DNA from: Pedobacter zeae
GTDB taxonomy: Bacteria > Bacteroidota > Bacteroidia > Sphingobacteriales > Sphingobacteriaceae
Direction: 5' to 3'
NCBI RefSeq assembly: GCF_014196715.1
Contig: NZ_JACIEF010000001.1
Span: 1,408,872 to 1,472,871, forward strand
Length of the DNA stretch: 64,000 nt
This document shows, piece by piece, positions 349 to 15,829 of the stretch. The notes beneath the pieces are model-generated. The model had not been told where the DNA came from. It did no database searches and saw nothing but the letters and a program-made list of their open reading frames with translations. Position 1 is the stretch's first letter. The number at the start of each line of letters is the position of its first letter. The position numbers and the translations under genes are program-made.

Positions 349-405
349 GGAACACTAAGTATTGGTCGGTGAGACATTAAGCAATAAAAAAAAAAATAGC
401 ATTTT

Positions 406-803: not shown

Positions 804-844
804 CTCAGCACAACATTTATTTTTCGGTAAGACCGGGATGATAT

Positions 845-2521
845 TTATCGTGTTGCCTTCAAAACAAAATCAACGATTGTCTTTTTGGGCACCACCACTG
901 TAGTTGTCCGGCTAAACCTGGCGATATTGATCCCGTAAAAACGACCTTCCCAGTCGAAAACGGGCGATCCGCAGGCTTTTGCTTTAATGGCGGCATCGTG
1001 CGTAAAAACAGCATTAAAGTCGTCTCTTCGTTCTGATTTTCCACCTTCAAATTTCTCTGCTGGGTGGTTAAAGACCGATTGTGCCCTTGCCTCGAGCCTG
1101 AAAGTTTTGCTCATTTTACCAGCTGCATTTGTCCACTCAAAAGTAACCTCATCATCTGCCCAGTACTTTAAGATTTCGGGAGCAAATTCACTTGCTTTAC
1201 CGATGGTTTTTCCGTTAATGCTGATCAGTTCATCGCCCACCTTTATTCCTGCTTTTTCTGCCGGGCTGCCGGCTTTAACCAAGGAAAACTGAACCGGGCT
1301 CGAGTTGTACACTACCATGGCGCCAAGATAAGGCTGGTTATTAATTTTTGGTAAATTAAATAACGTACTGCCTAAAACACTGCGCACTATTTTACCGGTT
1401 GGATTTATACTATAGAGCAGTCTGCCCATCTCTGCTTTAACGCTGGCTGTATCGGAAAAAGTTAAGTCAATCCCTCCACTTACCTGCCGTTCAAGAGCAA
1501 ATAAAACCAGGTCGTTTTCCTTGTCTTTTCCAATGAATTTGACCTTCACTGCAGTTCCATCAATATCGCATTGTGCTTCTTCTCCAACCATGGTGTTTTT
1601 GCTTAGTAAAAACTGTTTTATGGCTCCGCCTGAGGTTTTAACATTTAATAAGCAGGCAGCAATCTTTTGGTTTTGTCCTTTCATAACGCTTTTGATGGTT
1701 AAGCAACTGTTTTTAATCGTTGGCACCTCAAAATCAGGGTGCAAAGCCTTTTTTTTGCTTTCTTTCTGCATTAAGGAAAATAAGGGATCGGCTTTCACAC
1801 TATCGGTCTTTTCAGGAAAAGCGGTATAAAGTGTTTCATGGTTTAAGGCTGTCCAATAACGACGGTAAAGGTCAACAGGGACTTCGAAATTCATGTCCTC
1901 AGCAATATCAATGGCACTGTGCAAGCCAATTACACGACCATAATAATCGAACAAGGGGCCACCAGAATCGCCCGGTTCCATTTTGCAGGTGGAGCGGATA
2001 AAACCATATTCGTTCTTCACTTCAGCTATAGTGCCCAACCTTAAGGTGGGCAGACTTTGGTTCAGGCTTTCGGGATAGGAAATACTGATGCAAGGTTCAT
2101 TTTTAAGCAAACTGGCCGAATATCCCATTTCTGCAAAAGGGTAAGTGCCTTTATCGGTAATTTTCATCATGCCTACATCCGGAATACCGGGGCTTTCTTT
2201 AGTGTCTATTTTACCTAATGCCATTGCAATGCATTGCCGTCCGTCAGGGAAAAAAACCTTGTAGTTTTTACCCGGTAAAATGGTATGAGCAGCCGTTAAA
2301 ATATAACCATCGGCACTCACTACCACTCCGCTAAACTGGCCACCGGTTCTTTGGTTCTGCTGTACATCAAAACTCCACATCCGCACACTTGCAGGATATG
2401 CTTTTTTAACCGCCTGGGCAATGGTATGCTGAAATTTGGCAACCTGCTTGTTCTGCGCAGCAGCACCCAGATTAACCAGTATTATTAAGGTTACGGCTAA
2501 CGCTCTGATCGTGTTATTCAT
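845..2521 (-). CDS. HtrA-like serine protease with PDZ and a degenerate second protease lobe
   Basis: This is a predicted exported trypsin-fold endopeptidase of 558 residues with an N-terminal signal peptide (about 1-22). The first protease domain (about 30-230) carries a full triad: His79 in LTAAH, Asp115 in IPDVG and Ser186 in GDSGGP. A PDZ domain lies at about 405-475 (core AGSPAEKAGIKVGDELISI). Residues 270-390 plus 500-555 look like a second, decayed trypsin domain with the PDZ inserted: the Asp region survives (ENDLVLF, Asp337), the His motif is gone, and the serine loop reads KACGSPVFD with Cys517 where Ser is expected. It is the last gene of the minus-strand run, 3 bp after the upstream TlpA gene, so probably cotranscribed. 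A role in quality control or processing of envelope proteins is inferred from the family. Confidence 0.85.
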   Translation of the reverse strand: MNNTIRALAVTLIILVNLGAAAQNKQVAKFQHTIAQAVKKAYPASVRMWSFDVQQNQRTGGQFSGVVVSADGYILTAAHTILPGKNYKVFFPDGRQCIAMALGKIDTKESPGIPDVGMMKITDKGTYPFAEMGYSASLLKNEPCISISYPESLNQSLPTLRLGTIAEVKNEYGFIRSTCKMEPGDSGGPLFDYYGRVIGLHSAIDIAEDMNFEVPVDLYRRYWTALNHETLYTAFPEKTDSVKADPLFSLMQKESKKKALHPDFEVPTIKNSCLTIKSVMKGQNQKIAACLLNVKTSGGAIKQFLLSKNTMVGEEAQCDIDGTAVKVKFIGKDKENDLVLFALERQVSGGIDLTFSDTASVKAEMGRLLYSINPTGKIVRSVLGSTLFNLPKINNQPYLGAMVVYNSSPVQFSLVKAGSPAEKAGIKVGDELISINGKTIGKASEFAPEILKYWADDEVTFEWTNAAGKMSKTFRLEARAQSVFNHPAEKFEGGKSERRDDFNAVFTHDAAIKAKACGSPVFDWEGRFYGINIARFSRTTTVVVPKKTIVDFVLKATR

Positions 2522-2524
2522 TAT

Positions 2525-3112
2525 TTATTTACGATTTTTTGCCAATGCAATCCGCTCTGAAAGTTCTTCGAGTGCAGCGGCATCGGTTCCGGCGAAACCG
2601 GTAAGTTTAAATATAATTTTACCTGCTTTATCGATAACGAATTTCGCGGGGATGGCACTTACACCATAATTCTCAACTGTTGCATGACGCCCTTCACCGT
2701 CTTTCATGTCCATCAGTACCTGAAAATTAAAACCCGATTGCGCCATGTATTTTTTTACATCTTCAACTGGCGTTTTGCTCGTTTCCCAGGTGTGGATAAA
2801 TAAAAACTTTACCGATGGATCATTTTTATAAGCATTAACAGCAAGTTGCATCGCCGGAAAAGATTTTTTGCAGGGTACACACCAGGTCGACCAGAAATCG
2901 AGTACAATTACTTTTCCTTTTAAATCTTTTAACGAGATCTCCTTCCCGTCGAGGTCCTTTAAGGTAAAATCGGGTGCGGGTAATGCAATCCTTTCAGCCA
3001 GCAGCTGCTGGTGAAGGGAACTGGCCTGACCTGCCGGAGATTGCGCCCACAGCGAAATAACGGCCATTACATTTAGCATTGCCAACAGGCAAAGCCTTAA
3101 AAAAAGTTTCAT
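2525..3112 (-). CDS. TlpA-type thiol-disulfide oxidoreductase, exported
   Basis: This is a thioredoxin-fold protein of 195 residues. I start it at the Met at 3112 because the next residues (KLFLRLCLLAMLNVMAVISL) form a signal peptide; the longer frame upstream (to 3214) adds 34 residues without membrane character and would overlap the previous gene. The active site is WCVPC, with Cys78 and Cys81, preceded by the AhpC/TSA/ResA-like segment PAPDFTLKDLDG. A conserved cis-Pro region follows (SAIPAKFV). Family members reduce disulfides in the periplasm. The gene lies 59 bp after the DsbD-alpha fusion gene and 3 bp before the protease gene, consistent with one transcript. Confidence 0.88.
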   Translation of the reverse strand: MKLFLRLCLLAMLNVMAVISLWAQSPAGQASSLHQQLLAERIALPAPDFTLKDLDGKEISLKDLKGKVIVLDFWSTWCVPCKKSFPAMQLAVNAYKNDPSVKFLFIHTWETSKTPVEDVKKYMAQSGFNFQVLMDMKDGEGRHATVENYGVSAIPAKFVIDKAGKIIFKLTGFAGTDAAALEELSERIALAKNRK

Positions 3113-3171
3113 ATGTGTTTGGGTAAAGGCGATGAGGCCTGCAAAATGGCCCCATCGCGTGTATAAGTAGC

Positions 3172-5040
3172 TTAAATGAGTATTTCTACTATTTTCTCTT
3201 TCGGTGGATAACATTTATTTTCATCGCACACCTGGTAATACAGGCCGCATTTAATCTTAGTTCCGGCTTTTGCCTTATTATAATCGATCATGATCCTGAA
3301 GTTTGCTTTTCCTTCAAAAATAAACATGCCATCGTTGCCCGGATAAGGAACTGCTGCTGTAGTTTTCCATTCCCGGTCGGCCACTGCCCCCTCCGGAAGT
3401 TCGAGGCGGGTTTCGGTTACCACAAATGGGTTATCTTTAGGTACATAAGCATAAATGTGCCAGCCCTTTAATATTTTGGCTTCGATAAGCAGGCTGTCTT
3501 TTTTAGCTCCGTTACCCGGAATAAACTTTGCCGAAACGGCAACCGGATCGGCCGTGGTAGGTTCACCACTTATAACTGCTTTTGGCAATTGATAACTTTG
3601 CCGAGCTGTAACAGCACTACTTTTACCGTAAGTATTAACCATGAATTTAAACCCACCTGATTCGGTATAAAACAGGTTATGGCGGTTTTGGTTGAGCCAT
3701 TTTCTCCAATCGGCAGCAGTATTAAACTTTTCAGTGGTATAACGTTCAAGCAGGCGTTGCGCCATGGCTACATCTTTGTTTATTTCCAACAAATGTACAC
3801 ATTGATCTAAAAGGGCTATTTTACGGTTAGAAATACCCAACTTTTGCGCATCGCGATCGAGCTGAAGTGTGTAGGCACCTGAAGGATAGAAATATTCATA
3901 ATTTTGGCGGTAGTATTGGTGGTACAGGTTCATATTCGTACCGTAAACTGCAAACAAACTGTCGCCGGCATAACCTTTTACATAATCTTCAAAAGACTGG
4001 GTATCGTTGGTTACTGGCATTTTCAGAAACATCTCGTTACCGTGACCAATGTCTTCTCCTTTTGCCTTTTTTTCTTTTAATTCCTGCTGCATTTTCAGCA
4101 TGCGCAGATTACCTTCCTTTCGAGCAATAATGGCTTGATGGTAAAGATCCTTGTTTAACCGGTAAATCAGTTCATCTATGCCGCTACGGGTTTCGATCTG
4201 CACTTTTTTAACAATAGCCTGGAGGTGATCAAATTTTTTGATATAACAAATGGCATTTACAAAAACATCTTTGGCTTCGTCGGTCATGTAATCCGGCGAT
4301 CCTGCAAAGCCCCACATAAAAAAATTACCCTGTCGGCCCAGCGCTACTGCCTCCGCATTTTTGAGGCAAACACCACCCGAAATAGATTCTGCGTCGGGCG
4401 AATCGTTAAATCCTTCACCATGCGAAACCATACCGATCAGATAAGGTTCTTTAGCCGATCCTTCCCTTTTTACCACTTGCCACATATCCATTTGCCTGGG
4501 TGTTTTCGTACCTTCATGGCCATTAAAAAAAGAACCTGGTGTTGGCTTCTTTACTAAGGTAAGTTTTACGGCATTGGGGGTATTAAAAATAGGATGACTG
4601 GTTTTAATGTTTAAAGCTTCATCATCTAAACATTGGCAGTACCAATCGAATTTTAAGCCCAAAGGCAAGCCTACATTAGGCGCCATGGCATGCATTAAAA
4701 CCATCGGACGGTTAAAATCAGGCGGCAGCGCCACCGGCCCGGCGTCCATCAAAGTTACATCTACGCCATCCGACATTTCTGCTTTGTAATCGGCCACATC
4801 CACTACCCTAACTTCGGTAAAACGCTGTTCCAGGAAGGCTTTAAAATCTGCCATTCTGGTTTTGTATACTTTTTCGGGGATGTTGGGTGTAGTAGAATAA
4901 TACACTATGTTTTTTGGCATTGGCCGGCTGGGAGTATAACCCACGTACAAAACCTTTAATGCAATTTTATCCCGATGTTTCGCAACTCCAAATGTGTACA
5001 GTGAAACCAGCAGGAGGCATAAGGTGAAAATCTTTTTCAT
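3172..5040 (-). CDS. Exported amidotransferase-like protein with C-terminal DsbD-alpha-like redox domain
   Basis: The protein has 622 residues from the Met at 5040, chosen because KKIFTLCLLLVSLYTFGVA is a clean signal peptide. Residues about 25-265 resemble class I glutamine amidotransferase/ThuA-like folds (segments KVLYVGYT, DVTLMDAGP, FMWGFAGSPDYM), but I see no certain Cys-His-Glu triad. A helical, charged middle follows. Residues about 500-622 match the N-terminal domain of DsbD, including the loop YYQVCDENKCYPP with Cys605 and Cys610, equivalent to the CxxxxxC pair that DsbD uses to pass electrons. It sits between two TlpA genes, so a redox partnership is plausible. The N-terminal function is unknown. 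Confidence 0.75.
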   Translation of the reverse strand: MKKIFTLCLLLVSLYTFGVAKHRDKIALKVLYVGYTPSRPMPKNIVYYSTTPNIPEKVYKTRMADFKAFLEQRFTEVRVVDVADYKAEMSDGVDVTLMDAGPVALPPDFNRPMVLMHAMAPNVGLPLGLKFDWYCQCLDDEALNIKTSHPIFNTPNAVKLTLVKKPTPGSFFNGHEGTKTPRQMDMWQVVKREGSAKEPYLIGMVSHGEGFNDSPDAESISGGVCLKNAEAVALGRQGNFFMWGFAGSPDYMTDEAKDVFVNAICYIKKFDHLQAIVKKVQIETRSGIDELIYRLNKDLYHQAIIARKEGNLRMLKMQQELKEKKAKGEDIGHGNEMFLKMPVTNDTQSFEDYVKGYAGDSLFAVYGTNMNLYHQYYRQNYEYFYPSGAYTLQLDRDAQKLGISNRKIALLDQCVHLLEINKDVAMAQRLLERYTTEKFNTAADWRKWLNQNRHNLFYTESGGFKFMVNTYGKSSAVTARQSYQLPKAVISGEPTTADPVAVSAKFIPGNGAKKDSLLIEAKILKGWHIYAYVPKDNPFVVTETRLELPEGAVADREWKTTAAVPYPGNDGMFIFEGKANFRIMIDYNKAKAGTKIKCGLYYQVCDENKCYPPKEKIVEILI

Positions 5041-5064
5041 TATCCAGATCAGTTTAGCCAATAA

Positions 5065-6198
5065 TTAATTGAAAATTTCAGCGAGCTTTTTGTTTAACGG
5101 TTCGCCACGGAGGCCATTTCCGATAATTTTGCCCTCTGCATCTACCAGAAAACTGGCAGGTACGGCACGCACCCCATATAAACGGCCCACTTCGTTATTC
5201 CAGCCTTTCAGGTCAGATACATGAATCCAGTCTAAACCATCTTTTTCTATCGCCTCTAACCAGTTTTCTTTTACATGATCCAGTGAAACCGAAATAATTT
5301 CGAAGCCTTTATCCTTATACGTTTGATACTGTTTTACCAGGTTAGGGTTCTCTGCCCTGCATGGGCCGCACCAGCTTGCCCAAAACTCAACCAGCACCAC
5401 TTTTCCCCTTAAACTGGCTAATGAAACCGGTTTGCCCACCACGTTGTTCTGGGTAAAAAGGGGTGCAGCTTTTCCTACTGCGGTAATACGGCTTGCTGCC
5501 ATACGCTGTGCCAGTTCTTTGCCCATATCGGTTTCGCGGTATGCTTGGCTTAACGCGTTAAAAATAGGCTCTACCCTGCTTACATCTACTTTACTTCCGG
5601 CAGCTTCTGAAAGTGCCACCAAAGCGAAATAGGAAGTTGGGTGTTCTTTGGTAAATTGAAACTGCTTATCCGTTCTGTCCTGTAGTTTTTTTCTGAAGCG
5701 CAGATCTACTGCTTTCACATAGGCCGTATCTTTTTGCTGCTCGGGTGTTCCCTTGTTAAAATCGATATTTACGGCTTTGGTAAGGGCCATAATGGTACCG
5801 CCAATGGCTTTATTATAGGCTTCGTATTCCTGATACACCTTTGATCCCGTAAAAACAGCATTCTGTAAAGAATCTTTTGAGCTAATGGTAACCTGCTCTT
5901 TGCCGAAATAAAAGTAAATCACATCGCCGGTATAAACGGCCTTGCCTTTACCTCCACCGGTATGGTCGAGGGCCATGCGGGCATAGGTATAGCCGGAAAT
6001 ATGCCCGGTAAATTTAAAATTTCCGTTAACCAGGGCTATCGAATCTTCATGGCCTACACCGTTATCCATATAATCGATATAAGCCATAGCTGGTGCACCC
6101 AGCGAACCTATTTTACCAGTTAAACTAAAGTTTGGTGCCTGAGCCCGGATTAAGACCGGGATTAGAAGTATCAATATGGCCACTTTTATGATTTTCAT
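5065..6198 (-). CDS. Thioredoxin-family protein with N-terminal DUF4369
   Basis: This is a 377-residue exported protein. It has a signal peptide (KIIKVAILILLIPVLIRAQ), then a DUF4369-like beta-rich domain (about 22-130, starting FSLTGKIGS), a helical linker, and a C-terminal AhpC/TSA-Redoxin domain (about 240-377) with WASWCGPC, active-site Cys277 and Cys280. This arrangement is common in Bacteroidota beside SusC/SusD loci. It probably reduces disulfides at the outer face of the inner membrane. It lies 24 bp upstream of the DsbD-alpha fusion gene and 55 bp after the PKD-like lipoprotein gene. The electron donor is not encoded nearby unless it is the neighbouring fusion protein. Confidence 0.88.
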   Translation of the reverse strand: MKIIKVAILILLIPVLIRAQAPNFSLTGKIGSLGAPAMAYIDYMDNGVGHEDSIALVNGNFKFTGHISGYTYARMALDHTGGGKGKAVYTGDVIYFYFGKEQVTISSKDSLQNAVFTGSKVYQEYEAYNKAIGGTIMALTKAVNIDFNKGTPEQQKDTAYVKAVDLRFRKKLQDRTDKQFQFTKEHPTSYFALVALSEAAGSKVDVSRVEPIFNALSQAYRETDMGKELAQRMAASRITAVGKAAPLFTQNNVVGKPVSLASLRGKVVLVEFWASWCGPCRAENPNLVKQYQTYKDKGFEIISVSLDHVKENWLEAIEKDGLDWIHVSDLKGWNNEVGRLYGVRAVPASFLVDAEGKIIGNGLRGEPLNKKLAEIFN

Positions 6199-6253: not shown

Positions 6254-7672
6254 TCAGTTTCTGATGGCGATATCGACAGGGGCACCTGGTATACCTTCAA
6301 TCTTTTTAATCAGTACGCCGTTCATTCCCGTAGCTATATTTAAAAAAGAAACGGTTTCTTCTGTTCCTACCATCAGGGTTTCTTCGTCTTCGCTAAGTTT
6401 TAGCATAGAAATTGTTTTTCCGCTAAAGCTGGTGGCCAGCTCCCTCAGCTCTTCATTTACAGGGTTGTAACGGTAAACTTTACTGCCATTGGCAATATAG
6501 ATTACCCCATTTTTAGCACCGCTCCACTTGGTGTTTTCATTAATTAAGTCCTGGCGCACAAACAGCCGTTTATGCTGAGGTGTAAAGGTGAATGGCCCGT
6601 TAAACTGAACATTGAACTTGAGTTCATAAACCTTACCGTCGGTTCCTTTACAATAAGCAAAGCAATCTGCATTATTAAGCTGCTCTAAATGAATAAGATC
6701 CATGCCAACACTTAAAGGATCAAAAGCATTGTTGGTAACCGAATACTGCGTGCCAAAATAAACAGGGGTTCCATAAACATTAATCCTTACAAACTGCTTC
6801 CGGTTTCGGTCGAATCCGATAAAATAAGTAGCCGACTGTGTAAAACTCATTACAAAAGATGGGGCCAGTTCATAATCACCATCGGCCGGCAAACCAAACA
6901 TGCCGTAAGTAGCAGCCTGATCCCAGGTACTTGTGGTGCCTCCGTAAAATTTGCCGTTAACAATACCCATCATTACTCCTTGCGGATGCGCAACAAAAGA
7001 ACCCACTTCCAAACCATCGGGGGGTGTAAAAAAGTTATCTTTCAGTGTATTGGGATATTTAGGGTCTTCCTGCATGGTATTGGGTTCGAGCCTGATGCCG
7101 CCATTTTTGGTAATAATCCAGTAGCCCAATAAGGTACCCCCGGTAAATGTATTCCGTAACAAGAATAAATTGGTAGGGTTGGCTGGCAGGTCTTTCCCTT
7201 GCATGGCCCGGTATAAACGGGCCTGTACGCTACCATCCGGCTTTACAAACGAAAACTGTGTTACTCCATTTTCAACGCTTAATACGGTTGTGCCTTTCGC
7301 AAATTCGGTTCCGCCATCAATATAAAATTTATGGAAGTATTTCATCCCGTTCGCTTTGTTATAAACGGTAAGGCGTGCGGCATATCTTTTAGCCTGTAAG
7401 CCAAAAATGATCCTTAATGCAGGGCCGTTATATAAAACATCATTCCCTTCTATTACACTGATTCTCCACTGAAGTTCGATATTGGCTGCATCTGCTCCCT
7501 CAATTTTTGGTTTGATGATCAAACTATCGCCAACACTTGCGGTATAAACAGAATCGAGGTTAACCAATTTAGGTTCTACCGGCATATCGATATCGTAATT
7601 ACCCAAGTCTTTATGGCATGCGGCTAAAGCAACCACACCCATTATTAATAAGATATATTTTTTAATATTCAT
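6254..7672 (-). CDS. PKD-like family surface lipoprotein
   Basis: This 472-residue lipoprotein has the lipobox VVALAAC (Cys19) followed by HKDLGNYD. Residues about 35-125 form a PKD-like immunoglobulin fold (EPKLVNLDSVYTASVGDSLI), matching the Bacteroidota PKD-like family found next to SusD. The rest looks like a beta-propeller of repeated strands (GKFYGGTTSTW, GKVYELKFNVQ, NGSKVYRYNP), suggesting binding of an extracellular ligand. It lies 10 bp after the DUF4843 gene and in the SusE/F position of the locus, so it is probably an accessory ligand-binding protein at the cell surface. The substrate cannot be told from sequence. Confidence 0.8.
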   Translation of the reverse strand: MNIKKYILLIMGVVALAACHKDLGNYDIDMPVEPKLVNLDSVYTASVGDSLIIKPKIEGADAANIELQWRISVIEGNDVLYNGPALRIIFGLQAKRYAARLTVYNKANGMKYFHKFYIDGGTEFAKGTTVLSVENGVTQFSFVKPDGSVQARLYRAMQGKDLPANPTNLFLLRNTFTGGTLLGYWIITKNGGIRLEPNTMQEDPKYPNTLKDNFFTPPDGLEVGSFVAHPQGVMMGIVNGKFYGGTTSTWDQAATYGMFGLPADGDYELAPSFVMSFTQSATYFIGFDRNRKQFVRINVYGTPVYFGTQYSVTNNAFDPLSVGMDLIHLEQLNNADCFAYCKGTDGKVYELKFNVQFNGPFTFTPQHKRLFVRQDLINENTKWSGAKNGVIYIANGSKVYRYNPVNEELRELATSFSGKTISMLKLSEDEETLMVGTEETVSFLNIATGMNGVLIKKIEGIPGAPVDIAIRN

Positions 7673-7682
7673 ATTCTTTTAT

Positions 7683-8492
7683 TTAAATAACCTCATTGCC
7701 ATTTTCGTCTATGAAATAATATTTACCGTTCTGCATGTTTTTTCTCAAAAGCGTTTTTTTAGACGGGTTGCTTTTGTTGTAGAAATAATAGCTATCGGTA
7801 TTGCCTGCAGTAACTTCTTCTATAACATAACCTTTTGCAGCATTTTTCGTCACCCAATTAAACGGATTGTTTAACATCGTGGTTAATAAACCTATATAAT
7901 AGAGGTTTTTTGGGGCATCAAGTCCGTCGGTACTAAGAGAGGTCTGAGCAGTTACCAGGATAAACAGCTCATGTTTGGTTCTGGAGTAAGGCGGCAGCGG
8001 CCAGGTATCCCACCAACCCGGTTTTTCCAGTTTGGCTGAGAATACCACCTTTGCCCTGATCAGGTAAGGGTTTTCGATGCCCAGATCGGGTGTCGCGGTT
8101 AATTTGATCAGTATCGAAACCGACCTGTTTTCCAGTTGCCGGTCTTTATTATAGATAACCACCGGGATGTAGCCTATTCCCCTGTTCGGAAGAATGGAAT
8201 ATTGGGGTTTTAATGCCTCATAATGCAGGCCGGGTGTGGCCGTTGAAGAATCGGCATCTACACGTGCACTGAATTTCCGCTCTGCATCAGTTCTGATCCC
8301 GGATAAACGTACCGGCAGCCATACCGTATCCTGAGCCAGTGTCGGATTATAGGCGAAGGTTCTTACTATGCTGTCTTTATCCCCGTTGTAAATGTCGAAA
8401 TAAACATTTGCGCTGTGGTTAAAACGCATTTCTTCTGCTTTCTTACAAGAAACAAGGCAGATGATGGCGAACATTAATATATATATTTTCAT
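7683..8492 (-). CDS. DUF4843 lipoprotein
   Basis: This 269-residue lipoprotein has signal and lipobox IICLVSC (Cys16) then KKAEEMRF. The body matches DUF4843: NVYFDIYNGDKDS near the N terminus, then a Calx-beta-like strand-rich region (SARVDADSSTATPGLHYEAL, GYIPVVIYNKDRQLE) and a C-terminal region ending in DENGNEVI. It sits between the susD-type gene (30 bp) and the PKD-like lipoprotein gene (10 bp), an order common in Bacteroidota nutrient-uptake loci. It is likely a surface-exposed accessory of the SusCD pair. No catalytic residues are evident. Confidence 0.8.
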   Translation of the reverse strand: MKIYILMFAIICLVSCKKAEEMRFNHSANVYFDIYNGDKDSIVRTFAYNPTLAQDTVWLPVRLSGIRTDAERKFSARVDADSSTATPGLHYEALKPQYSILPNRGIGYIPVVIYNKDRQLENRSVSILIKLTATPDLGIENPYLIRAKVVFSAKLEKPGWWDTWPLPPYSRTKHELFILVTAQTSLSTDGLDAPKNLYYIGLLTTMLNNPFNWVTKNAAKGYVIEEVTAGNTDSYYFYNKSNPSKKTLLRKNMQNGKYYFIDENGNEVI

Positions 8493-8522: not shown

Positions 8523-10013
8523 TTACCGCCCCCCATACACCACCTCATCATTAGGAAGAGGAAGTACGAAAATGTTATCAGAAGCCGGAATGATTACCCC
8601 GGTTTGCCCTACAATGCCCCTGTTTAGCCTTTTGTACATATAGAACAGCTGGCCTTCGGCCAACCACTCCTTGCGTGCATCTTTAAGTAGCTCTTTTAAT
8701 AGGTCTTCTTCATTATTGATGGATAAAGGATCGCCTATTTGCCTCGCTTCGCGTACCTGTTTAAGGTAGTTTACCGCCTCTGTTGGATTACTTGCATAGG
8801 TACATTCTGCAGCGATATAATACAGCTCACTAAGCCTGATGGCCGGAGCCATTAAATAATGTAAGTTTGCATTGGCCTCAGCGCTTAAAGGGTTTCTGCG
8901 GTATTTCACAATGTCGTAAGACCTTGACGATTGATTGGAAGTAGCCGATAACCAGTACTTATAACGGGAATCGCTAGCCCCGGCGGTTGCCTTTTCATAA
9001 ATATAATCGGCAGCATCCTCTATCAGGTAAAAGCCCCGGGTACCACTTTGAAACCAATTGTCTTTGATCTCTTTAGCTGCACCAGGTATGTACCATCCAA
9101 AAACAAGTTCTTTATACAGGATACGGTCTTTCTTGGCATCTTCAAACGCTTCAAAATCACTTTTGGCTGTCCACGGGAATTTTTTGGAGTCGATTACCTC
9201 TTTTGCATTTGCCAGGGCCTTAACTTTATCATTTTTATACAGATATACCCGTGCAAGTGTACCACACACCGCATAATAATTTAAACGGTGCCTCCTGTTT
9301 TGTAAAAAAAGGCTGGGGTTCTTCTCTTCTGTATTTTTAAGCGTATCGGTAACCACAGGGTAGTTTACAATATAACCGGCACTGCGGATCGGATCTGCCA
9401 TTAATAATTGCTTCGATTGCTCCAGGTCTTTAATAATGAGGTCTATCGTTTCGGATACGCTCGAAACCGGCGTAACCTCTTTGGTATAGCGGTTTGCATA
9501 GGGAATTCCTTTTGCCGTGGCGTTTCTCAGGTAAGAAGGGGCAAAAAGCCGTAATAAATCGAAATGAAAGTAGGCCCTTAATGCAAGCGCTTCTCCTTTA
9601 ACGATTGCATAATTACTGCCGCTAAAAATATTCTTTTTGGCATCTACATTCTCCAGAATCAGGTTACAGTTTACAATGGCATTGTATAAACCTGCCCATA
9701 TTTTATCCTTCCTTTTGATAAACTCGCCATGTTTATAATTATACAATGAGGTTTGCCGGTAATCCTGTCCGTCATCACGCATCGAAAAATTTTGCGCCAG
9801 AACTTCCGTTGTACCGAATGTAAGCTCTTTGCCATACAGGTCTGATTCTGTACTGCGGTTGTACACGCCGTTTATAGCTTCCATAAAGCCGCTTTCAGTA
9901 CTGAATAAAATCGGGGCCGCTATTTCCGATTCAGGCTCAACTTCCAGCCACTTCTTGCAGGAAGAACACAATCCCGTTAGTACAAAAAGGCAGATCAACA
10001 CTCTAATCTTCAT
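8523..10013 (-). CDS. SusD/RagB-family nutrient-binding lipoprotein
   Basis: This 496-residue protein has lipobox VLTGLCSSC and the start KKWLEVEPESE typical of SusD. TPR-like helices follow (LILENVDAKKNIF, GEALALRAYFHFDLLRLFAP), and the C terminus carries the SusD signature region LLKDARKEWLAEGQLFYMYK. Such proteins form the lid over a SusC channel and capture ligand outside the cell. It lies 34 bp downstream of its cognate SusC gene. The ligand is unknown; with no glycoside hydrolase in this operon but a protease and redox proteins, a peptide or metal-chelate substrate is as likely as a glycan. Confidence 0.93.
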   Translation of the reverse strand: MKIRVLICLFVLTGLCSSCKKWLEVEPESEIAAPILFSTESGFMEAINGVYNRSTESDLYGKELTFGTTEVLAQNFSMRDDGQDYRQTSLYNYKHGEFIKRKDKIWAGLYNAIVNCNLILENVDAKKNIFSGSNYAIVKGEALALRAYFHFDLLRLFAPSYLRNATAKGIPYANRYTKEVTPVSSVSETIDLIIKDLEQSKQLLMADPIRSAGYIVNYPVVTDTLKNTEEKNPSLFLQNRRHRLNYYAVCGTLARVYLYKNDKVKALANAKEVIDSKKFPWTAKSDFEAFEDAKKDRILYKELVFGWYIPGAAKEIKDNWFQSGTRGFYLIEDAADYIYEKATAGASDSRYKYWLSATSNQSSRSYDIVKYRRNPLSAEANANLHYLMAPAIRLSELYYIAAECTYASNPTEAVNYLKQVREARQIGDPLSINNEEDLLKELLKDARKEWLAEGQLFYMYKRLNRGIVGQTGVIIPASDNIFVLPLPNDEVVYGGR

Positions 10014-10047: not shown

Positions 10048-13000
10048 TTAGAAAGCTGCTCTGATTGAAAAGGTTAAACTCCTGGTAAATGGATAATTGA
10101 TACCCCTTTCTTCTTTTACCGACGACCACCGCACCACATCATTCGCCGTTACCTGGAACATGAGGCTCGACATCGACAGTTTGGATGCGATTTTTTTATT
10201 CATATCGTAAGAAAGGTTCACTGATTGGAGGTTGATCAGGTTATCTGGCTGGATAAATCTCGAGCTTACATCCGTCTCTCCATTATCTGCTATATTTTTA
10301 TAAAAAGACAGGTCGCCGGGTTGCTTCCATTTTTCCTCGAACACCCGTTTATCAACGTTATATCTTGGATCGGCATTTTCAACACGTTCTACCAGGGTGA
10401 GGTTGTATTTATCACCACCGAAAAAGGTTTGAAACTGTACATACAGGCTAAACCTTTTATAGTTAACGGTGCCGCCAAAGTAGCCGCTTACCTTAGGATT
10501 AGGATCGCCAATTACCACATAATCTCTCTTATCGTAATCATAGGTCAGTGTACCATCTTTTTTAACGTATAGCTCACGCCCGTTTTCCGGATCTATGCCT
10601 AAGGAGCGCACGCCATAAATGGCATTAAATGGTTGCCCTTCGCTAAACCTGAGCAGTGGGATCCCCCGGTAGCCGCCATCGCCCGGTTTTACCGATTGCA
10701 GTTCGTCTGCCCTGTCGTTGTACCGCTTTAATGCATTAGAGATCCTTACTACCTTGTTTTTGTTTGAAACCATATTGGCATTAAGATTTACCGACCAGTC
10801 TTTGCTCCTTACTGCCTCTACATTGATCCCCAGCTCGGCCCCTTTGTTTTCCATGTCTCCGAGGTTTTCTTTATAAGATAAAAACCCTGTCGATGGAGGT
10901 AAAGTAATATCCGCCAGAATATCTTTGGTAAACTTTTTATAGACCCTAGGCATAATCATTACACGGTCTTTAAAAAGCCCAATATCTACACCTATATCGG
11001 TCATCCTTGTTTTTTGCCATCCGAGGTTTTCATTTCCGTAACTGTTTACACCGGCGCCAATACCCGATGAATACCAGTTGCCCGTATTGTACCTGTAAAT
11101 GGTTTTTGACAAGTAAGGATCAAATTCTACAGAACCGGTAAGACCTGTTGATGCTTTTATCCTGAGCTGGCTGATCACCGGGTTATCTTTCAGAAATGCT
11201 TCCTGGTGCACATTCCAACCCAAACCGAACGACCAGAAAGGGGCCAATTTATTGTTCACACCGAATTTCGAAGAACCATCAATACGGACCGTACCATCCA
11301 TCAGATACCGGTTTTTGTACGAATAGTTTACCGTAAAGAAAGAACCAAATAAACGGGCTTTTTCGAGCTTGCTTTGTGGTTTTCCATCTTCGGCATAACC
11401 CTTGGCAAATCCTATGCTGGTAAAACGGTCGTTGGCAAAGCCAATGGCCGTAAATTCTTTCTGATCGCGCAGCTCTGTGCGGGCGTTTACCCCCACCAAG
11501 GCATTAAAGTAATTGCCTCCAATCTGCTTTAACCAGGTTAACCTCATGTTACCGTCCCAATAGGTCTCTTTCATTTCGCGGTTTGTATATTCCCCTTTCT
11601 CATCAATTTTATCGGTGGTATACAGGTAATATTTATTGGCCTGCGGAGAGGTGAACACATCGTCAGAATTTGCCCGTGTGGTTACACTCATCTGCGCCCT
11701 TAACCTCAGGTCTTTCGCCACTTCTAAATCGGCAGAAAGGTTATCGATAATTTCGGTATACTTCGATTTATTAAAACTGCTTAGATTGGCATCGAATAAC
11801 GGATTAAAAACATATTCTTTTGACCGGTCCTGTTTTTCATATACGTCAGAAATCCTCATGGCCATGCCATTGGCATCTTTCAACGGGTAATAAGGGTTCA
11901 TCCTTACGTAGTTGGAAAAATCGCCATAAGGAGATTCGGTAGCGCCTACCTGTGTAATGGATAATTCATTTCTGAACTGAAGTTTCTTCACATTGTACTG
12001 AAAACTCATTCCACCCGAGTACTGGTCTCTTTCTGAGCCCTTCATTGCTCCGGGCCGGGTTTGGTAGCGCAGGTTTACATTATAGCGGAAGGCCTGCGAG
12101 CCTCCATCCAGGTTAATCGCGTGTTTATGGCCTATGGTATTACGTAAGGGTTGTGATAACCAATAACTGTTCACCCCACCAATAACATTGGCTTTTTTGT
12201 GATAATAAATTTCATCGAGCTGATCTTGCGGTACCTGTTGTTTCGCCGAGTTGTATAATCCTGCCAAAACCTCGTAATCCAGTTTTTGCGCGGCATCTAA
12301 AACCTGGTAGTCACTCAGGTCGGCAGCAGTAAGATTCAGTTCGTAGTTATACTCTACCCGCAATTTCCCTTCTAAAGGTGTTTTAGTGGTAATCACAATT
12401 ACACCATTGGCCGCGCGCGAACCATAAATTGCTGTGGCCGCTGCGTCTTTTAATGAAGTAACTGAAGCAATCCGGTTTACATCCAGGTCAAATACCTTTT
12501 CTACACTCACCTCGTAGCCATCGAGCATGAAAACAGGCATATTTGCTTTCCCCTGAATTTCATCCCTTCGCAATACCTGTCCGTCGCCGCTGGGCAATGC
12601 AGAAGCTCCCCTAACGTTGATAGAGGGGATCCGGTTAGGGTTTGAGCCAGCAAGGTTATTATCGATGAGTTTAAATGAAGGATCGAATGTGCCGATGCTT
12701 TGCAGCAAATTCTGTGGATTTACCCTTCTCAGCTGTTCTCCCGATATGGTAACTGCGTTACCGGTATAATTGTCTTTTTTAATGGTTTGGTAACCGGTAA
12801 CCACCACATCGTTCATTTGTGTCATTTTAGAAATCAGCTCAATTCTCAATGCTTTCGGGCCGGTAACCTTACTTTCCTGCAACTCATAGCCCACATAACT
12901 GAAAACTAAGATGCTGCCTTCATCTACATTGACCTTAAACTCACCTTTCTCGTTGGTAATGCCTATACTGGCACCATTTTTAAGGGAAACATTAACGCCG

Positions 13001-13449
13001 GGAAGGGTTTCGCCTGTAGCTTTATCCATCACTACACCTTTTACCTCTATTTTTACCGCCGCACGTGTTACAACAAGCGGTACATTTTCCCTCCGGTTAA
13101 TCACAATGGTTTTGTTAACAATAGTATAGCTCAGGTTTTGATCTTTTAAAGCAGCATTTAAAGCTTCTGTAAGCGATGCATTATTGAACTCGACGGTTAC
13201 CTCAGGTTTATCCTGCAGCAACTGGCCTTTGTAAAAGAAAAAATAGCCGGTTTGCTTTTTTATCTCCTTAAAAACCTGTTTAAGCGAGGCTTTTCTGCGG
13301 GAGAGCGTTACGGTTTGAGAAAAGGTGGCTGCCGACAAATGTAAAGCACCGACCAATAATAAGATTGCAGTCAATTTCATGACCAATAAAAATTTAATCT
13401 TTACCCTCCGTGGGTCGCACACGGGGTTGTAAAGGGTAGTTAATTTCAT
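10048..13449 (-). CDS. SusC/RagA TonB-dependent transporter with STN domain
   Basis: This is an 1133-residue outer-membrane transporter. After a signal region (about 20-45) come an STN secretin/TonB short domain (about 47-118; LKQVFKEIKKQTGYFFFYKG), a carboxypeptidase-regulatory-like domain (about 133-210; GVVMDKATGETLPGVNVSLK), a plug (about 220-355; NVRGASALPS, TSLKDAAATAIYGSRAANGV) and a C-terminal 22-strand barrel ending in SLTFSIRAAF. The STN domain is the part that talks to FecR-type anti-sigma factors, and a FecR/sigma pair lies directly upstream. This supports induction through substrate occupancy. The chosen Met precedes a basic stretch (PRRVKIKFLLVMK); a start at the later Met at about residue 24 (VMKLTAILLL) is also possible. 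Confidence 0.93.
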   Translation of the reverse strand: MKLTTLYNPVCDPRRVKIKFLLVMKLTAILLLVGALHLSAATFSQTVTLSRRKASLKQVFKEIKKQTGYFFFYKGQLLQDKPEVTVEFNNASLTEALNAALKDQNLSYTIVNKTIVINRRENVPLVVTRAAVKIEVKGVVMDKATGETLPGVNVSLKNGASIGITNEKGEFKVNVDEGSILVFSYVGYELQESKVTGPKALRIELISKMTQMNDVVVTGYQTIKKDNYTGNAVTISGEQLRRVNPQNLLQSIGTFDPSFKLIDNNLAGSNPNRIPSINVRGASALPSGDGQVLRRDEIQGKANMPVFMLDGYEVSVEKVFDLDVNRIASVTSLKDAAATAIYGSRAANGVIVITTKTPLEGKLRVEYNYELNLTAADLSDYQVLDAAQKLDYEVLAGLYNSAKQQVPQDQLDEIYYHKKANVIGGVNSYWLSQPLRNTIGHKHAINLDGGSQAFRYNVNLRYQTRPGAMKGSERDQYSGGMSFQYNVKKLQFRNELSITQVGATESPYGDFSNYVRMNPYYPLKDANGMAMRISDVYEKQDRSKEYVFNPLFDANLSSFNKSKYTEIIDNLSADLEVAKDLRLRAQMSVTTRANSDDVFTSPQANKYYLYTTDKIDEKGEYTNREMKETYWDGNMRLTWLKQIGGNYFNALVGVNARTELRDQKEFTAIGFANDRFTSIGFAKGYAEDGKPQSKLEKARLFGSFFTVNYSYKNRYLMDGTVRIDGSSKFGVNNKLAPFWSFGLGWNVHQEAFLKDNPVISQLRIKASTGLTGSVEFDPYLSKTIYRYNTGNWYSSGIGAGVNSYGNENLGWQKTRMTDIGVDIGLFKDRVMIMPRVYKKFTKDILADITLPPSTGFLSYKENLGDMENKGAELGINVEAVRSKDWSVNLNANMVSNKNKVVRISNALKRYNDRADELQSVKPGDGGYRGIPLLRFSEGQPFNAIYGVRSLGIDPENGRELYVKKDGTLTYDYDKRDYVVIGDPNPKVSGYFGGTVNYKRFSLYVQFQTFFGGDKYNLTLVERVENADPRYNVDKRVFEEKWKQPGDLSFYKNIADNGETDVSSRFIQPDNLINLQSVNLSYDMNKKIASKLSMSSLMFQVTANDVVRWSSVKEERGINYPFTRSLTFSIRAAF

Positions 13450-13661
13450 ACCTTTGTAATGAATGAGGTTAAAAAATAGCAGCTGGGTTTCGAAGCAAGC
13501 TGCTTGTCCAGATTTCTACCGGAAGCGTTGTCGCGCTTTCGGTTTTTTTTTAAAAAAAGGTACGTTGCTAAATTTCTGGTAATTTTTTCATCATAAAGTT
13601 TAGTTAGTTGGTTAATGGTTTGGTTGATTTTTGTGGCTGTTTACAGAAAAGCCGTTTTGTT

Positions 13662-14780
13662 TTAATTTCCTGTTACGGTTAATACTTTGCCCCTGGCATC
13701 GATATGAACATGGTTAAGTTCCAATATTTTAAAAACCTCTTCCAGGTTGCTGTTTCTTGGTATTTCCCCTATATACTTTTCGGATGTAATTTTGCCCTGG
13801 TAAACTACATCTACATCGTACCAGCGCGAAATCTGGCGCATAATGCTCTGCAGATCATCGTTGTCGAAAGAGAAAATATTGTTTTTCCAGGCCATTTCCT
13901 TATCTGTATCTACCTGTTCATTGAGCGATAACCTGGCATTGTTGGCATTGAACTGCGATTGCTCGCCCGGGTGCAGATTTACCGAACCCGATTGGGTACT
14001 TACCTTTACGGCACCTTCTAAAAGTGTAGTTTTAACCATCGCTTCGTCCCTGTAGGCATTAATATTAAAATGTGTTCCTAAAACCTCAACCGTTTGCGCT
14101 CCGGTTTTTACCCTAAAGGGACGGGTATGATCTTTAGCAACTTCGAAATAAGCTTCACCACTCAACTCCACCTGCCTTTCCTTTTTTGCAAATGCGTAAG
14201 GATAGGTTAAAGTGGTGGCTGCATTAAGCCAAACTTTTGTTCCATCGGGCAGGTTTACCTGGTATTGCCCCCCACGGGGTGTGGCAATTGTATTCGAGCC
14301 CCTTACTGCTGCATTCGCAAGTTCTGTAACGATATACTCGAGCTGGCCATTTTTTGCCTTCCGGATAACCACCCCGCTTTGATTGGCTATTTGCCCGTTT
14401 TTGGCATCGTCCAGATTAACAACCGTTCCATCGGCCAGGGTAAGGACCGCTTTATGCCCGCCGGGAAGGATATTTTTCAGTTCGGTTTTGGCCGTTAACG
14501 GCGTAGCATCACGCTGTGCAACAAAATACAGTCCAACGCCCAGGCATAACACAATACTTGCTGCCATGGTAAACCGTTTTACCGTAAGTCGTTTTAAAGT
14601 TGTTGTGCGGAGGCTTAACCGGTTCCAAACTTCCTGTTTACTGGATTCTATCCGTGAATGTGGGGGCGCCTGTTGATCAACAGGTAAGTGCAGGTACCAC
14701 TCTTCAATAACAGCCATCTCCTCGGGCGTACAATTACCCGCGATGTATTTGTTTAAAAGCTTTTTCGCATTTTTCTCCAT
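13662..14780 (-). CDS. FecR-family anti-sigma factor
   Basis: This inner-membrane anti-sigma factor has 372 residues. I start at the Met at 14780 (EKNAKKLLNKYIAGNCTPEE), which begins the cytosolic anti-sigma helix region; an upstream Met would add 14 residues of no family character. One transmembrane helix (about 80-100, AASIVLCLGVGLYFVAQ) is followed by the periplasmic FecR domain (IATPRGGQYQVNLPDGTKVW, HFNINAYRDE) and the C-terminal STN-interacting region (RWYDVDVVYQGKI). It lies between the ECF sigma gene and the STN-type SusC gene, as in Fec-type signalling. It should hold the sigma factor inactive until the transporter signals. Confidence 0.93.
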   Translation of the reverse strand: MEKNAKKLLNKYIAGNCTPEEMAVIEEWYLHLPVDQQAPPHSRIESSKQEVWNRLSLRTTTLKRLTVKRFTMAASIVLCLGVGLYFVAQRDATPLTAKTELKNILPGGHKAVLTLADGTVVNLDDAKNGQIANQSGVVIRKAKNGQLEYIVTELANAAVRGSNTIATPRGGQYQVNLPDGTKVWLNAATTLTYPYAFAKKERQVELSGEAYFEVAKDHTRPFRVKTGAQTVEVLGTHFNINAYRDEAMVKTTLLEGAVKVSTQSGSVNLHPGEQSQFNANNARLSLNEQVDTDKEMAWKNNIFSFDNDDLQSIMRQISRWYDVDVVYQGKITSEKYIGEIPRNSNLEEVFKILELNHVHIDARGKVLTVTGN

Positions 14781-14818
14781 TAAAAGAAGTTTGTTTGGGT
14801 TAGTTAATGTATATACGG

Positions 14819-14835
14819 CCAAGGTATAGCCTTGG
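14819..14835 (-). promoter_or_regulatory. Hairpin in the leader of the FecR gene
   Basis: CCAAGG-TATAG-CCTTGG is a perfect 6-bp stem about 39 nt upstream of the FecR start. On the minus strand it is followed by CCGTATATAC, without a T-run, so it is not a typical terminator. It could tune FecR expression relative to the sigma factor; this is inference. Confidence 0.4.
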
Positions 14836-14926: not shown

Positions 14927-15511
14927 TTAGCGGTAATTTTTAAATAGGAAAACCACATAAATAACCAAACCCAGCCGCGATTTAAGAATTCGCAGGGCTT
15001 TTTTAACCTGGGTTTTAACCGTTAACTCAGATAGGCCTAATGCTACCGCAATTTCTTTGTGCGATTTATTCTCCCTGCGGCTTAAAATAAAAATTTCGCG
15101 CATTTTGGGCGGCAAAGCATCAATTTCCTGTTCAATTAAACGCGCCATCTGCTTTTCGCGTACCCGATAATCCGTTAGTACGTGGTCCTGATCGATATAA
15201 TCCTGCAAAGAATCCACGTAACGGCTCTCTACTTTTTGATGCGCAAACACATCAAGCACACGATTACGTACCGCCGTATACAAATAGGCAGATAAGTTAC
15301 CATCAGGTGCTACCTGTAAACGTTTAACCCAAAGCGATTCGAACAATTGGTGTAATACGTCTTTCGCTTCCTCCTCATCGTTTAGGCGTTTGCTGGCATG
15401 AACAAAAAGCAATCCGTAAAAGCGGTTGTAAATTTCGGTAAAAGCCAACTCATCACCTTGAGTTAACAAGTATGCTAATTCGCTGTCAGAATATGAACCG
15501 TAAACACGCAT
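14927..15511 (-). CDS. ECF RNA polymerase sigma factor, SusC/FecR-associated type
   Basis: This 194-residue sigma-70 family extracytoplasmic-function factor has region 2 at about 15-80 (DELAFTEIYNRFYGLLFVHA, HQLFESLWVKR) and region 4 at about 120-180 (LPPKMREIFILSRRENKSHK, AVALGLSELTVKTQVKKAL). I start at the Met at 15511 (RVYGSYSDSELA) because a Bacteroidota -7 box lies 10 bp upstream; the alternative Met 30 bp earlier would lie before that box. It is followed after 146 bp by the FecR gene and probably activates the SusC operon downstream. No other sigma gene is in the window. Confidence 0.94.
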   Translation of the reverse strand: MRVYGSYSDSELAYLLTQGDELAFTEIYNRFYGLLFVHASKRLNDEEEAKDVLHQLFESLWVKRLQVAPDGNLSAYLYTAVRNRVLDVFAHQKVESRYVDSLQDYIDQDHVLTDYRVREKQMARLIEQEIDALPPKMREIFILSRRENKSHKEIAVALGLSELTVKTQVKKALRILKSRLGLVIYVVFLFKNYR

Positions 15512-15521
15512 AGAGATCACA

Positions 15522-15529
15522 CAAAGATA
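15522..15529 (-). promoter_or_regulatory. -7 box TATCTTTG before the ECF sigma gene
   Basis: The octamer fits the Bacteroidota TAnnTTTG element exactly and lies 10 nt before the chosen ATG, implying a very short leader. I see no good -33 TTTG at 19-21 nt spacing. This box decides the choice of start at 15511. Confidence 0.6.
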
Positions 15530-15829
15530 ATACAAATACAACCGGTTTCATGGCTCTACCCCGGCAGTTATCTTACTAATATTTTAGAATTTGTAACTTT
15601 TTTGCATCAAATTGCTATATTTTATACTATAAAACAGAAAGCACTCCACTTTTACGGTTTTTTTGATCAAAAAAAATCTGCAAATCAACCACCTGAGTTG
15701 GCTACCAAACCACCTGTTAAGCGAAAGTGCCTCTTTTTACGTAAAAACAAATAAATGATGCTGGATGGTATAGGTTGATTGGATACCCTACCGGGCATCA
15801 AAACGGCTTGCCGGGTATAAGAAATGAGT
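15530..15829. other. Intergenic region without a gene
   Basis: This AT-rich gap lies between the sigma gene promoter and the end of the DUF1772 gene. No reading frame with family features, RNA gene or repeat shared elsewhere in the window was seen. Confidence 0.6.

Follow-up and report, generated by a model that had tools for sequence, protein, structure and literature searches.

Three adjacent thiol-redox genes at the end of a SusCD operon in Pedobacter zeae: a possible pathway for reducing imported peptides or proteins before digestion

The Fus systems pair a TonB-dependent receptor, FusA, with an M16 protease, FusC, and in the parts of the two reports considered here their authors raise the possibility that cytochrome c peroxidase, a redox enzyme, acts on an imported substrate by reducing it (PMC6793856, PMC6071955). 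The terms thioredoxin, TlpA and disulfide are absent from the main text of PMC6793856. RagAB of Porphyromonas gingivalis is a SusCD-type barrel and lid. RagA occurs in allele types and has a highly conserved N-terminus, the ligand described for the complex is a peptide, and the portion of the source considered mentions no thiol-redox genes beside RagAB (PMC11817032). The levan and dextran SusCD utilisomes are described, in the excerpt considered, as having four outer-membrane components, namely SusC, SusD and two lipoproteins (PMC7618045). A reduction step before digestion in SusCD import was not found among the listed matches of a literature search, which were judged mostly by title and the opening of the abstract.

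The locus described here shares features with each of these systems. Like the Fus systems, it encodes a TonB-dependent receptor alongside a periplasmic protease, which is labelled M16 in 22 of 65 related loci. However, it has a SusCD receptor, a sigma/FecR pair, TlpA proteins and a DsbD-alpha fusion, and often HtrA in place of M16. The locus may be Fus-like in its working, but it is not classed as Fus, the receptor being SusC/RagA by family cut-off alone. The predicted barrel and lid recall RagAB, and the four outer-membrane components recall the utilisomes. Unlike the utilisomes, the locus has no surface glycosidase, and periplasmic redox and protease genes come after the outer-membrane genes. 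The C-terminal domain of the fusion has the predicted fold of DsbD-alpha and its cysteine pair, as in DsbD and ScsB, but its partner in the protein is a predicted ThuA/GATase-like domain with a CxC rather than a membrane domain.

The window, a 64,000-nucleotide stretch of Pedobacter zeae DNA, contains a run of ten genes on the minus strand. The first encode an ECF sigma factor of the Sig70_bacteroi1 type (14927..15541; TIGR02985 139.7 bits, cut-off 126.4; Sigma70_r2/r4_2) and a FecR-type anti-sigma regulator (13662..14822; PF04773 and PF16344 above cut-off). They are followed by genes for a SusC with STN and CarbopepD_reg_2 domains (10048..13449; TIGR04056 595 bits; PF07660, PF13715, PF07715), a SusD lipoprotein (8523..10013; PF14322 and PF07980), a DUF4843 lipoprotein (7683..8492; PF16132 123.5 bits) and a PKD_2 family lipoprotein (6254..7672; PF16407 53.3 bits); the lipobox Cys is present in 16 of 16 sequences for each of the last two. 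The three redox genes encode a TlpA-like thiol-disulfide oxidoreductase with an N-terminal DUF4369 domain (5065..6198; PF14289, PF00578, PF08534), a fusion protein of 622 amino acids with a predicted ThuA/GATase-like N-domain, a helical middle and a C-terminal DsbD-alpha domain (3172..5040), and a short TlpA-like oxidoreductase (2525..3112; PF00578, PF08534). The run ends with a periplasmic HtrA-like protease (845..2521; PF13365 in two stretches, and PDZ). Pfam matches and coordinates confirm the description in the first-pass annotation of three adjacent thiol-redox genes at the end of a SusCD run, with lipoproteins on one side and a protease on the other. The listed ORF of the short TlpA (2525-3214) overlaps the fusion gene by 43 bases; the ATG at 3112 is a likelier start, and the stretch after it resembles a signal peptide by eye. 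For the fusion, the ATG at 5040 is likelier than the TTG at 5061 (listed ORF 3172-5061).

From SusC to the protease, the corrected starts leave gaps of 3 to 59 nt and the listed starts gaps of -43 to 55 nt, and every terminator-like site found on the minus strand between 600 and 16000 lies inside a gene. The short gaps and the lack of intergenic terminator-like sites on this strand favour one transcript, which would carry the redox genes together with the others. Separate transcription of the redox genes, which had been named as counting against their proposed role, is therefore not upheld, as far as sequence can show. Sigma-70 and terminator scans for a promoter belonging to the redox genes gave no clear excess over shuffled sequences. 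A Bacteroidota promoter motif (TTG, 17-23 nt, TAnnTTTG) has no match on the minus strand. These scans speak neither for nor against such a promoter. The ECF sigma factor, the FecR regulator and a receptor whose N-terminal region contains an STN domain are together the features of an ECF sigma/FecR-regulated receptor operon (PF04773, PF16344, PF07660, TIGR02985). Gene order and the STN domain make it plausible that the sigma/FecR pair controls all ten genes.

The fusion protein matches DsbD_N at residues 518-627 of the listed ORF (36.9 bits, cut-off 25), and no Pfam family reaches its cut-off in the approximately 500 residues N-terminal to this match. The transmembrane DsbD family (PF02683) is absent, and the protein does not combine the DsbD-beta and gamma domains by which a DsbD protein is recognized. 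Its structure was modelled with AlphaFold2 from 63 sequences (pLDDT 90.5); this model supersedes one from 14 sequences (pLDDT 72.6) that was too weak for the N-domain. The modelled C-terminal domain matches 1vrs_C (Z 10.6, rmsd 2.5, 105 aligned), and C605 and C610 are present in all 44 proteins that have the domain, as expected of a DsbD-alpha fold with its cysteine pair. The N-domain is predicted to fold like ThuA and class-I glutaminases, with matches to the ThuA-like 4jqs_A (Z 12.7, rmsd 4.0, 194 aligned) and to GMP synthetase glutaminases (Z about 11). In class I glutaminases, the nucleophilic Cys sits at a strand-helix elbow. When this elbow is positioned from the secondary structure of the model, no Cys occurs at positions 116 and 117, covered in all rows, or at 118, covered in 60 of 63 rows, and because the nucleophile is missing, a glutaminase role for the N-domain was rejected.

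Among the 63 proteins, the CxC of the N-domain (C135, C137) and H149 show no variation wherever they align; in a 72-row alignment, one row lacks C135. The patterns used to search for related loci included LK[FL]DWYC[QL], so CxC conservation is inflated in that set; the motif is present in 14 of 14 fusion proteins from a search run without this pattern. The CxC may have a catalytic role.

The larger TlpA protein has a DUF4369 match of 41.2 bits (cut-off 25) and an AhpC-TSA/Redoxin domain with the motif WCGPC, whose cysteines (C277/C280) are kept in 16 of 16 sequences. The short TlpA consists of an AhpC-TSA/Redoxin domain with the motif WCVPC (C112/C115 in listed-ORF numbering, kept in 12 of 12), and CxxC is found in 106 of the 109 TlpA-labelled genes of fusion loci. 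Both proteins score below the NCBIfam ResA cut-off (97.3 and 94.4 versus 170 bits), and so are TlpA-like, not ResA proper. DsbD-alpha is an electron donor, and a reductive direction fits its presence. Two places in the Pedobacter zeae genome encode DsbD_TM, each with an adjoining DsbD-alpha gene and both away from this locus; a DsbD transmembrane protein is encoded in 12 of the 65 fusion loci.

The protease has a Trypsin_2 domain with H79/D115/S186, a PDZ domain and a degenerate second trypsin-like part. The triad is present in 16 of 16 HtrA-like proteins, including two paralogues in the same genome. Its score for the Do family (TIGR02037) is 108.5 bits, below the cut-off of 416.2, and it is consequently HtrA-like and not DegP proper. 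The place after the redox genes is taken by proteases of unrelated families, either HtrA or M16.

SusC, SusD and TlpA genes occur together in 59 of 65 fusion loci with sufficient flank, a count that includes as SusD four hand-listed SusD-like proteins, one of them (in L114) checked with Pfam, and that draws mostly on Sphingobacteriaceae and Flavobacteriaceae, so the loci are not independent. HtrA or M16 is found in 38 of the 65, and neither lies within 9 kb in the other 27. The neighbourhood survey called for by the first-pass annotation therefore finds the arrangement conserved. Five loci with less than 7 kb upstream (L067, L081, L099, L102 and L113) and ten duplicating named records were left out of the count, and L108 was read by hand because an antisense ORF overlaps its fusion gene. 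Gene labels come from custom profiles, with Pfam run on examples. DsbD-alpha is present in 64 of the 65 loci and exists in 19 of them solely as a gene of its own, and in L070 and L089 the TlpA-DUF4369 protein is joined in frame to the fusion. The fusion also occurs with a TonB-dependent receptor in two Opitutaceae metagenome-assembled genomes (MAGs). In L078, the fusion gene has no SusC, SusD or TlpA gene nearby.

The Pedobacter zeae genome itself has 57 places with a SusD match at E up to 0.001, of which 55 are above cut-off, and 32 AhpC-TSA places. On the same strand as SusD, an AhpC-TSA-type gene follows within 8 kb at 6 of the 57; one lies upstream at 4, nearly as often, and one is on the opposite strand at 1. 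For the downstream genes, random placement gives p 0.0028, an approximate value that assumes the sizes of two contigs (C4 and C5). HtrA-type or M16 genes lie downstream of three SusD loci, all of them among the six that have TlpA downstream (Fisher p 0.0007). A comparison of 62 of 65 fusion loci with these 6 of 57 uses differing definitions and related loci, and its p carries no weight. TlpA genes also occur with SusCD where there is no fusion, so the arrangement does not depend on the fusion.

Within Pedobacter, the window and L053 share 71-87% identity in the shell of the locus and 38-58% in the outer-membrane cassette, with 90% for the sigma factor (compared in L039, which is the same locus as L053). 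Trees of shell and cassette conflict (AU p 1e-49, with group B of the test defined after these identities were seen). Between cassette types, the N-terminal part of SusC is the more conserved, whereas within one type it is the barrel. At the level of sequence, these comparisons show that Pedobacter has swapped the outer-membrane cassette and has retained the sigma/FecR genes, the SusC N-terminal domains, the redox genes and the protease.

A SusC/RagA barrel above its family cut-off, followed by SusD, marks the outer-membrane genes as a predicted SusCD uptake system. The best solved match to SusC is 8aa4, the SusC of the dextran utilisome, and the match to RagA (2.4e-49) is poorer. Among the matches to the SusD profile, a putative sugar-binding protein ranks first, with RagB again poorer. 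With RagA/RagB on one side and sugar-type matches on the other, homology leaves the ligand unsettled. BT2261-2264 of B. theta, a peptide-associated SusCD with two lipoproteins, was considered as a guide to a peptide ligand but gave no support to one; BT_2264 ranks ninth of nine SusC matches. A profile search gave no solved relatives of the PKD_2 and DUF4843 lipoproteins.

We propose, with a probability of roughly 0.45, that the operon encodes a module with interchangeable receptors that imports, reduces and then proteolyses its ligand, the three redox genes being its reductive part. The ligand would be captured at the surface by SusC/SusD and the DUF4843 and PKD_2 lipoproteins, and loading would be signalled through the STN domain of SusC to FecR and the ECF sigma factor. 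Electrons from inner-membrane DsbD would pass to the tethered DsbD-alpha domain in the periplasm, and from there to the CxC of the ThuA/GATase-like domain, to the two TlpA proteins, or to both. These would break disulfide bonds in the peptide or protein brought in, and the opened chain would be digested by HtrA here and by M16 in relatives. The earlier suggestion of an import-and-unfold pathway is partly supported by the conserved gene set, the protease-TlpA link (p 0.0007) and the direction of DsbD-alpha; its peptide or protein ligand is inferred. A disulfide-bonded peptide or protein would suit these data, and a metal or a glycan stands as an alternative. More doubtfully, the fusion might be a new type of disulfide reductase without a thioredoxin fold, in which the CxC does the work and DsbD-alpha recharges it. 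It would act with TlpA and a protease behind the interchangeable SusCD receptors, so that a cassette swap would change which disulfide-bonded peptide or protein a lineage lives on. If the proposal is true, SusCD serves Bacteroidota for taking up peptides and proteins that are folded or cross-linked, with a reduction step ahead of digestion, and a constant shell for signalling and processing can receive different outer-membrane cassettes. It would also give testable functions to the TlpA-DUF4369 proteins, to the DUF4843 and PKD_2 lipoproteins, and to an unnamed fusion family that extends from Pedobacter to Opitutaceae.

An unlikely alternative is metal handling, in which a metal chelate or a peptide carrying a metal enters through SusCD, the fusion binds the metal with its CxC and His, and TlpA and DsbD-alpha keep cysteines reduced. 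The invariant C135, C137 and H149 might form a metal site, iron transport is the classic setting of FecR/ECF sigma control, and relatives of DsbD and TlpA serve in metal-site assembly. However, the HtrA or M16 proteases of 38 of the 65 loci point to polypeptides, as does the FKBP-type isomerase of one fusion locus, and Pfam finds no metal permease among the ten genes of the window operon.

It is quite improbable that this is a glycan uptake operon in which the redox genes and the protease play a side role in maintaining the envelope. The closest PDB SusC is from the dextran utilisome, and GH29 is found in L059 and (by like sequence) L060, with GH92 in L059. The fusion directons hold 57 unlabelled ORFs, of which some were scanned with Pfam and the others judged by eye; no glycosidase was recognized among them beyond these two loci, and Pfam finds none in the window operon.

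A shade less probable still is that the redox genes form or repair disulfides of the operon's own surface proteins, or act as a redox switch on the protease. Three HtrA cysteines (C144, C179 and C517) are invariant in 16 of 16 sequences, and, of 16 SusD sequences, 12 have C250 and 10 have C116. However, the only cysteines commonly conserved in SusC, DUF4843 and PKD_2 are those of the leader and lipobox, which makes these three unlikely substrates (SusD has some, partly conserved), and the 22 M16 proteases, each longer than 850 amino acids, hold 0-4 cysteines. DsbD-alpha supplies electrons, which is the wrong direction for disulfide formation. Neutral accretion of common Bacteroidota genes by chance is very unlikely: 32 AhpC-TSA and 57 SusD places in one genome would give it room, but it is already hard to hold against the 59 of 65 co-occurrences, the retention of the redox genes through cassette exchange, the in-frame joining of TlpA-DUF4369 to the fusion and the two Opitutaceae MAGs with a TonB-dependent receptor.

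The leader between FecR and SusC (13450..13661, minus strand) contains an eight-codon ORF that reads MMKKLPEI*, together with a hairpin and a further stem that has a T run behind it. Its fold has a z of -2.48 (161 nt), and Rfam gave a sub-threshold match only, with no family above its gathering score. The mini-ORF was rejected as a general SusC leader; the sole other copy found, ATGATGAAAAA in L134, begins a longer ORF. Within the Pedobacter shell clade, it is present in 10 of 10 loci.

The operon in the window runs on the minus strand in the order ECF sigma, FecR, SusC with an STN domain, SusD, DUF4843 lipoprotein, PKD_2 lipoprotein, TlpA-DUF4369, the DsbD-alpha fusion (3172-5040), TlpA and an HtrA-like protease. 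This order confirms that three adjacent thiol-redox genes (TlpA-DUF4369, fusion and TlpA) lie between surface lipoproteins and a protease, as the first-pass annotation had stated. With corrected gene starts, neighbouring genes between SusC and the protease are 3 to 59 nt apart, and the only longer gaps in the run separate sigma from FecR (104 nt) and FecR from SusC (212 nt). The genome is 5.44 Mb, with the window in contig C1, and among the best-matching loci is that of Pedobacter sp. AK013, whose fusion protein is 90% identical.

The fusion query matches somewhere in 124 of 201 family genomes, its own included. Among the matches listed, most or the whole of the protein is found in 14 of these genomes, again counting its own, and the weaker matches are nearly all to the DsbD-alpha part only. 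A scan of 84,980 species, one genome each, yielded 67 fusion loci, mostly from Bacteroidota; the others include two Opitutaceae metagenome-assembled genomes and one Aquisphaera. Once duplicates had been discarded and the window plus three further loci included, the set comprised 71 loci, 70 of them with a called fusion gene, and the 65 of these with at least 7 kb upstream were used for counting same-strand neighbours within 9 kb of the fusion.

The survey shows that the gene set is conserved. SusC and SusD are each upstream of the fusion in 62/65 loci, TlpA (separate or fused) also occurs in 62, and all three are present in 59. A protease is encoded near the fusion in 38/65 loci (HtrA in 16, M16 in 22), and in 36 of the 59 that have at least 4 kb downstream. 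FecR is upstream in 49/65, several loci stopping short of its position. DsbD-alpha is present in 64/65 (in 19 solely as a separate gene), DUF4843 with PKD_2 in 28, and a DsbD transmembrane protein in 12. The exceptions are as follows: L078 has none of SusC, SusD and TlpA near the fusion, L087 and L097 lack TlpA, L103 is missing SusD, and L109 and L115 have no SusC in range, L115 also lacking SusD. In the Opitutaceae loci L081 (not among the 65) and L103, a FecR-like gene accompanies one for a TonB-dependent receptor; TlpA is present as well in L103, and SusD was found in neither.

The P. zeae genome as a whole provides a control. An AhpC-TSA-type gene lies within 8 kb downstream of 6/57 SusD places, where random placement gives a mean of 1.3 (contig sizes being approximate). 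Because four places have such a gene upstream on the same strand and one has it on the other strand, the downstream preference is slight. HtrA-type or M16 genes are downstream of 3/57 SusD places, and all three are within the six with an AhpC-TSA-type gene (Fisher p 0.0007). A paralogous operon at C1:1562000-1581500 (L122), which lacks the fusion, comprises SusC, SusD, DUF4843, PKD_2, TlpA, HtrA, HtrA and TlpA-DUF4369. The three-of-three overlap and the order in this paralogue therefore indicate that the association of redox genes with protease genes downstream of SusCD does not depend on the fusion. It is very likely (about 0.95) that redox genes, SusCD and protease form a conserved functional unit.

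In the fusion, the only Pfam match over the cut-off covers the last 110 residues (DsbD_N), which is also the sole widely recurring family over 63 relatives (44 members); two other families have two members each, with weak E-values. An AlphaFold2 model built from these relatives has a mean pLDDT of 90.5. In this predicted model, residues 1-250 align with ThuA-like 4jqs (Z 12.7, rmsd 4.0 over 194 residues) and with class-I glutaminase domains (Z about 11), and the last 130 residues with DsbD-alpha (Z 10.6, 2.5 Å over 105 residues). The glutaminase nucleophile position is occupied by a residue other than Cys. The best 50 Foldseek matches comprise DsbD-alpha plus adaptin-ear and other appendage domains, with ThuA absent among them. 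Relatives with a residue at the position share an invariant C135-x-C137 (61/61 and 63/63) and H149 (63/63), and in a 72-row alignment C135 is kept in 69/70 and C137 in 72/72. Part of the set was retrieved by a pattern containing DWYC; all 14 proteins retrieved without that pattern have the CxC. The planctomycete homologue from Aquisphaera (L108, 9953-11767) retains CxC (DWHCLCL) and has a cysteine pair at its DsbD-alpha end.

DsbD-alpha can also be encoded separately, with a signal-like start of its own, for example in L049 and L097. TlpA-DUF4369 and the fusion form a single 983-aa open frame in L070, and share one frame as far as the contig end in L089. Because of these shared frames, TlpA, the CxC domain and DsbD-alpha appear linked as partners, although L070 and L089 are both metagenome assemblies, which calls for caution.

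Cysteine conservation over 16 loci bears on the redox substrate. The number of cysteines in SusC ranges from one to three, the sole commonly shared one being in its leader, and the lipobox Cys is the only one shared in DUF4843 and PKD_2; these proteins are therefore unlikely substrates. SusD, with C250 in 12/16 and C116 in 10/16, might be one. HtrA has three invariant cysteines (16/16), and M16 proteases have 0-4. The imported ligand would then be the remaining obvious substrate. It had been proposed that the redox proteins could reduce disulfides in peptides or proteins after import and ahead of proteolysis. This is partly supported: the conserved unit is very likely, and reduction before digestion is plausible at somewhat less than even odds. 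Closest in concept is the Fus family of protease-associated import systems, for which PMC6793856 suggests that a redox enzyme might reduce an imported protein. The operon may work like Fus, yet it is not classed as a member, since it differs in both its receptor family and its redox chemistry. Among the matches listed, mostly non-subscription literature, no title or abstract opening concerned SusCD operons with TlpA/DsbD redox genes.

The outward- and inward-facing parts of the operon have different histories in Pedobacter. Compared with Pedobacter sp. Leaf216 (L053), identities are high for FecR (76%), TlpA-DUF4369 (87%), fusion (86%), TlpA (71%) and HtrA (74%), and lower for the outward-facing cassette of SusC (58%), SusD (46%), DUF4843 (38%) and PKD_2 (38%); the L053 cassette is 82-93% identical to those of L054 and L040. 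A tree of TlpA-DUF4369, fusion and HtrA unites nine Pedobacter loci of both cassette types (100/100). The cassette tree separates them, and a constraint uniting them is rejected (AU p 1.3e-49); in the former tree a constraint uniting four type-B loci, a group picked after identities were known, is rejected with p 2.5e-5. In blocks of 40 columns, SusC identity between types (L052 versus L053) is 52, 95, 80, 72, 85, 68 and 72% in the first seven blocks; further on it is mostly 30-75%, except for a short stretch of full identity at the end. Within one type (L052 versus L051) the pattern is reversed: blocks one to five share 60-100% and the later ones 90-100%. So the N-terminal signalling part goes with the inward-facing genes and the barrel with the cassette, the changeover lying at approximately residues 200-280. 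Identity rises again at the PKD_2/TlpA border. Thus, the tree conflict and identity breaks indicate that the outward part was exchanged and that signalling, redox and protease genes were kept. A conserved N-terminus is also described for RagA alleles in a passage of PMC11817032.

Some loci carry additional genes. The Parapedobacter locus L104 has an FKBP-type peptidyl-prolyl isomerase (12965-13618), a further polypeptide-handling gene. In the Flavobacterium loci L091, L092, L093, L094, L095 and L098, DsbD-alpha is encoded separately by one or two genes, alongside a DsbD transmembrane protein and an M16-labelled gene. A class-V aminotransferase is encoded as well in L098; L082 and L100 contain relatives of it. 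In L059, genes for a GH29 fucosidase (Pfam run on this one) and a GH92 mannosidase lie in or beside the operon (11887-17345), and in L060 a GH29 fucosidase gene, assigned by its similarity to that of L059, is placed likewise (11887-13296); these enzymes would fit a glycoprotein ligand. In L058, L062, L063, L066, L059, L076 and L045, one to three copies of lipoprotein-like proteins of about 300-340 aa precede the redox genes; most contain a W-x-E-H-W motif, and the two scanned (L058 and L045) match no Pfam family.

In the HtrA protein (845-2521, minus strand), PDZ interrupts a second trypsin-like part, in which K308, D337 and C517, invariant in 16/16, occupy the apparent His, Asp and Ser positions. 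This part is a candidate conserved pseudo-protease half or odd Cys site.

The FecR-SusC leader (13450-13661, minus strand) is strongly conserved in ten Pedobacter loci, and its sole good match in the genome is the locus itself. Besides a hairpin, it contains an 8-codon ORF (MMKKLPEI*) and a further stem with TTTTTT after it, and could be an attenuator or a remnant of an older gene start. Read on the plus strand, the hairpin forms a terminator-like site with eight T (13518-13543), such as would be required for an antisense RNA to the susC leader. Window positions 1-840 contain two non-coding copies, about 405 nt apart, of 166- and 106-nt stretches (95 and 92% alike). Directly past the protease gene there is also an inverted repeat of 36 nt.
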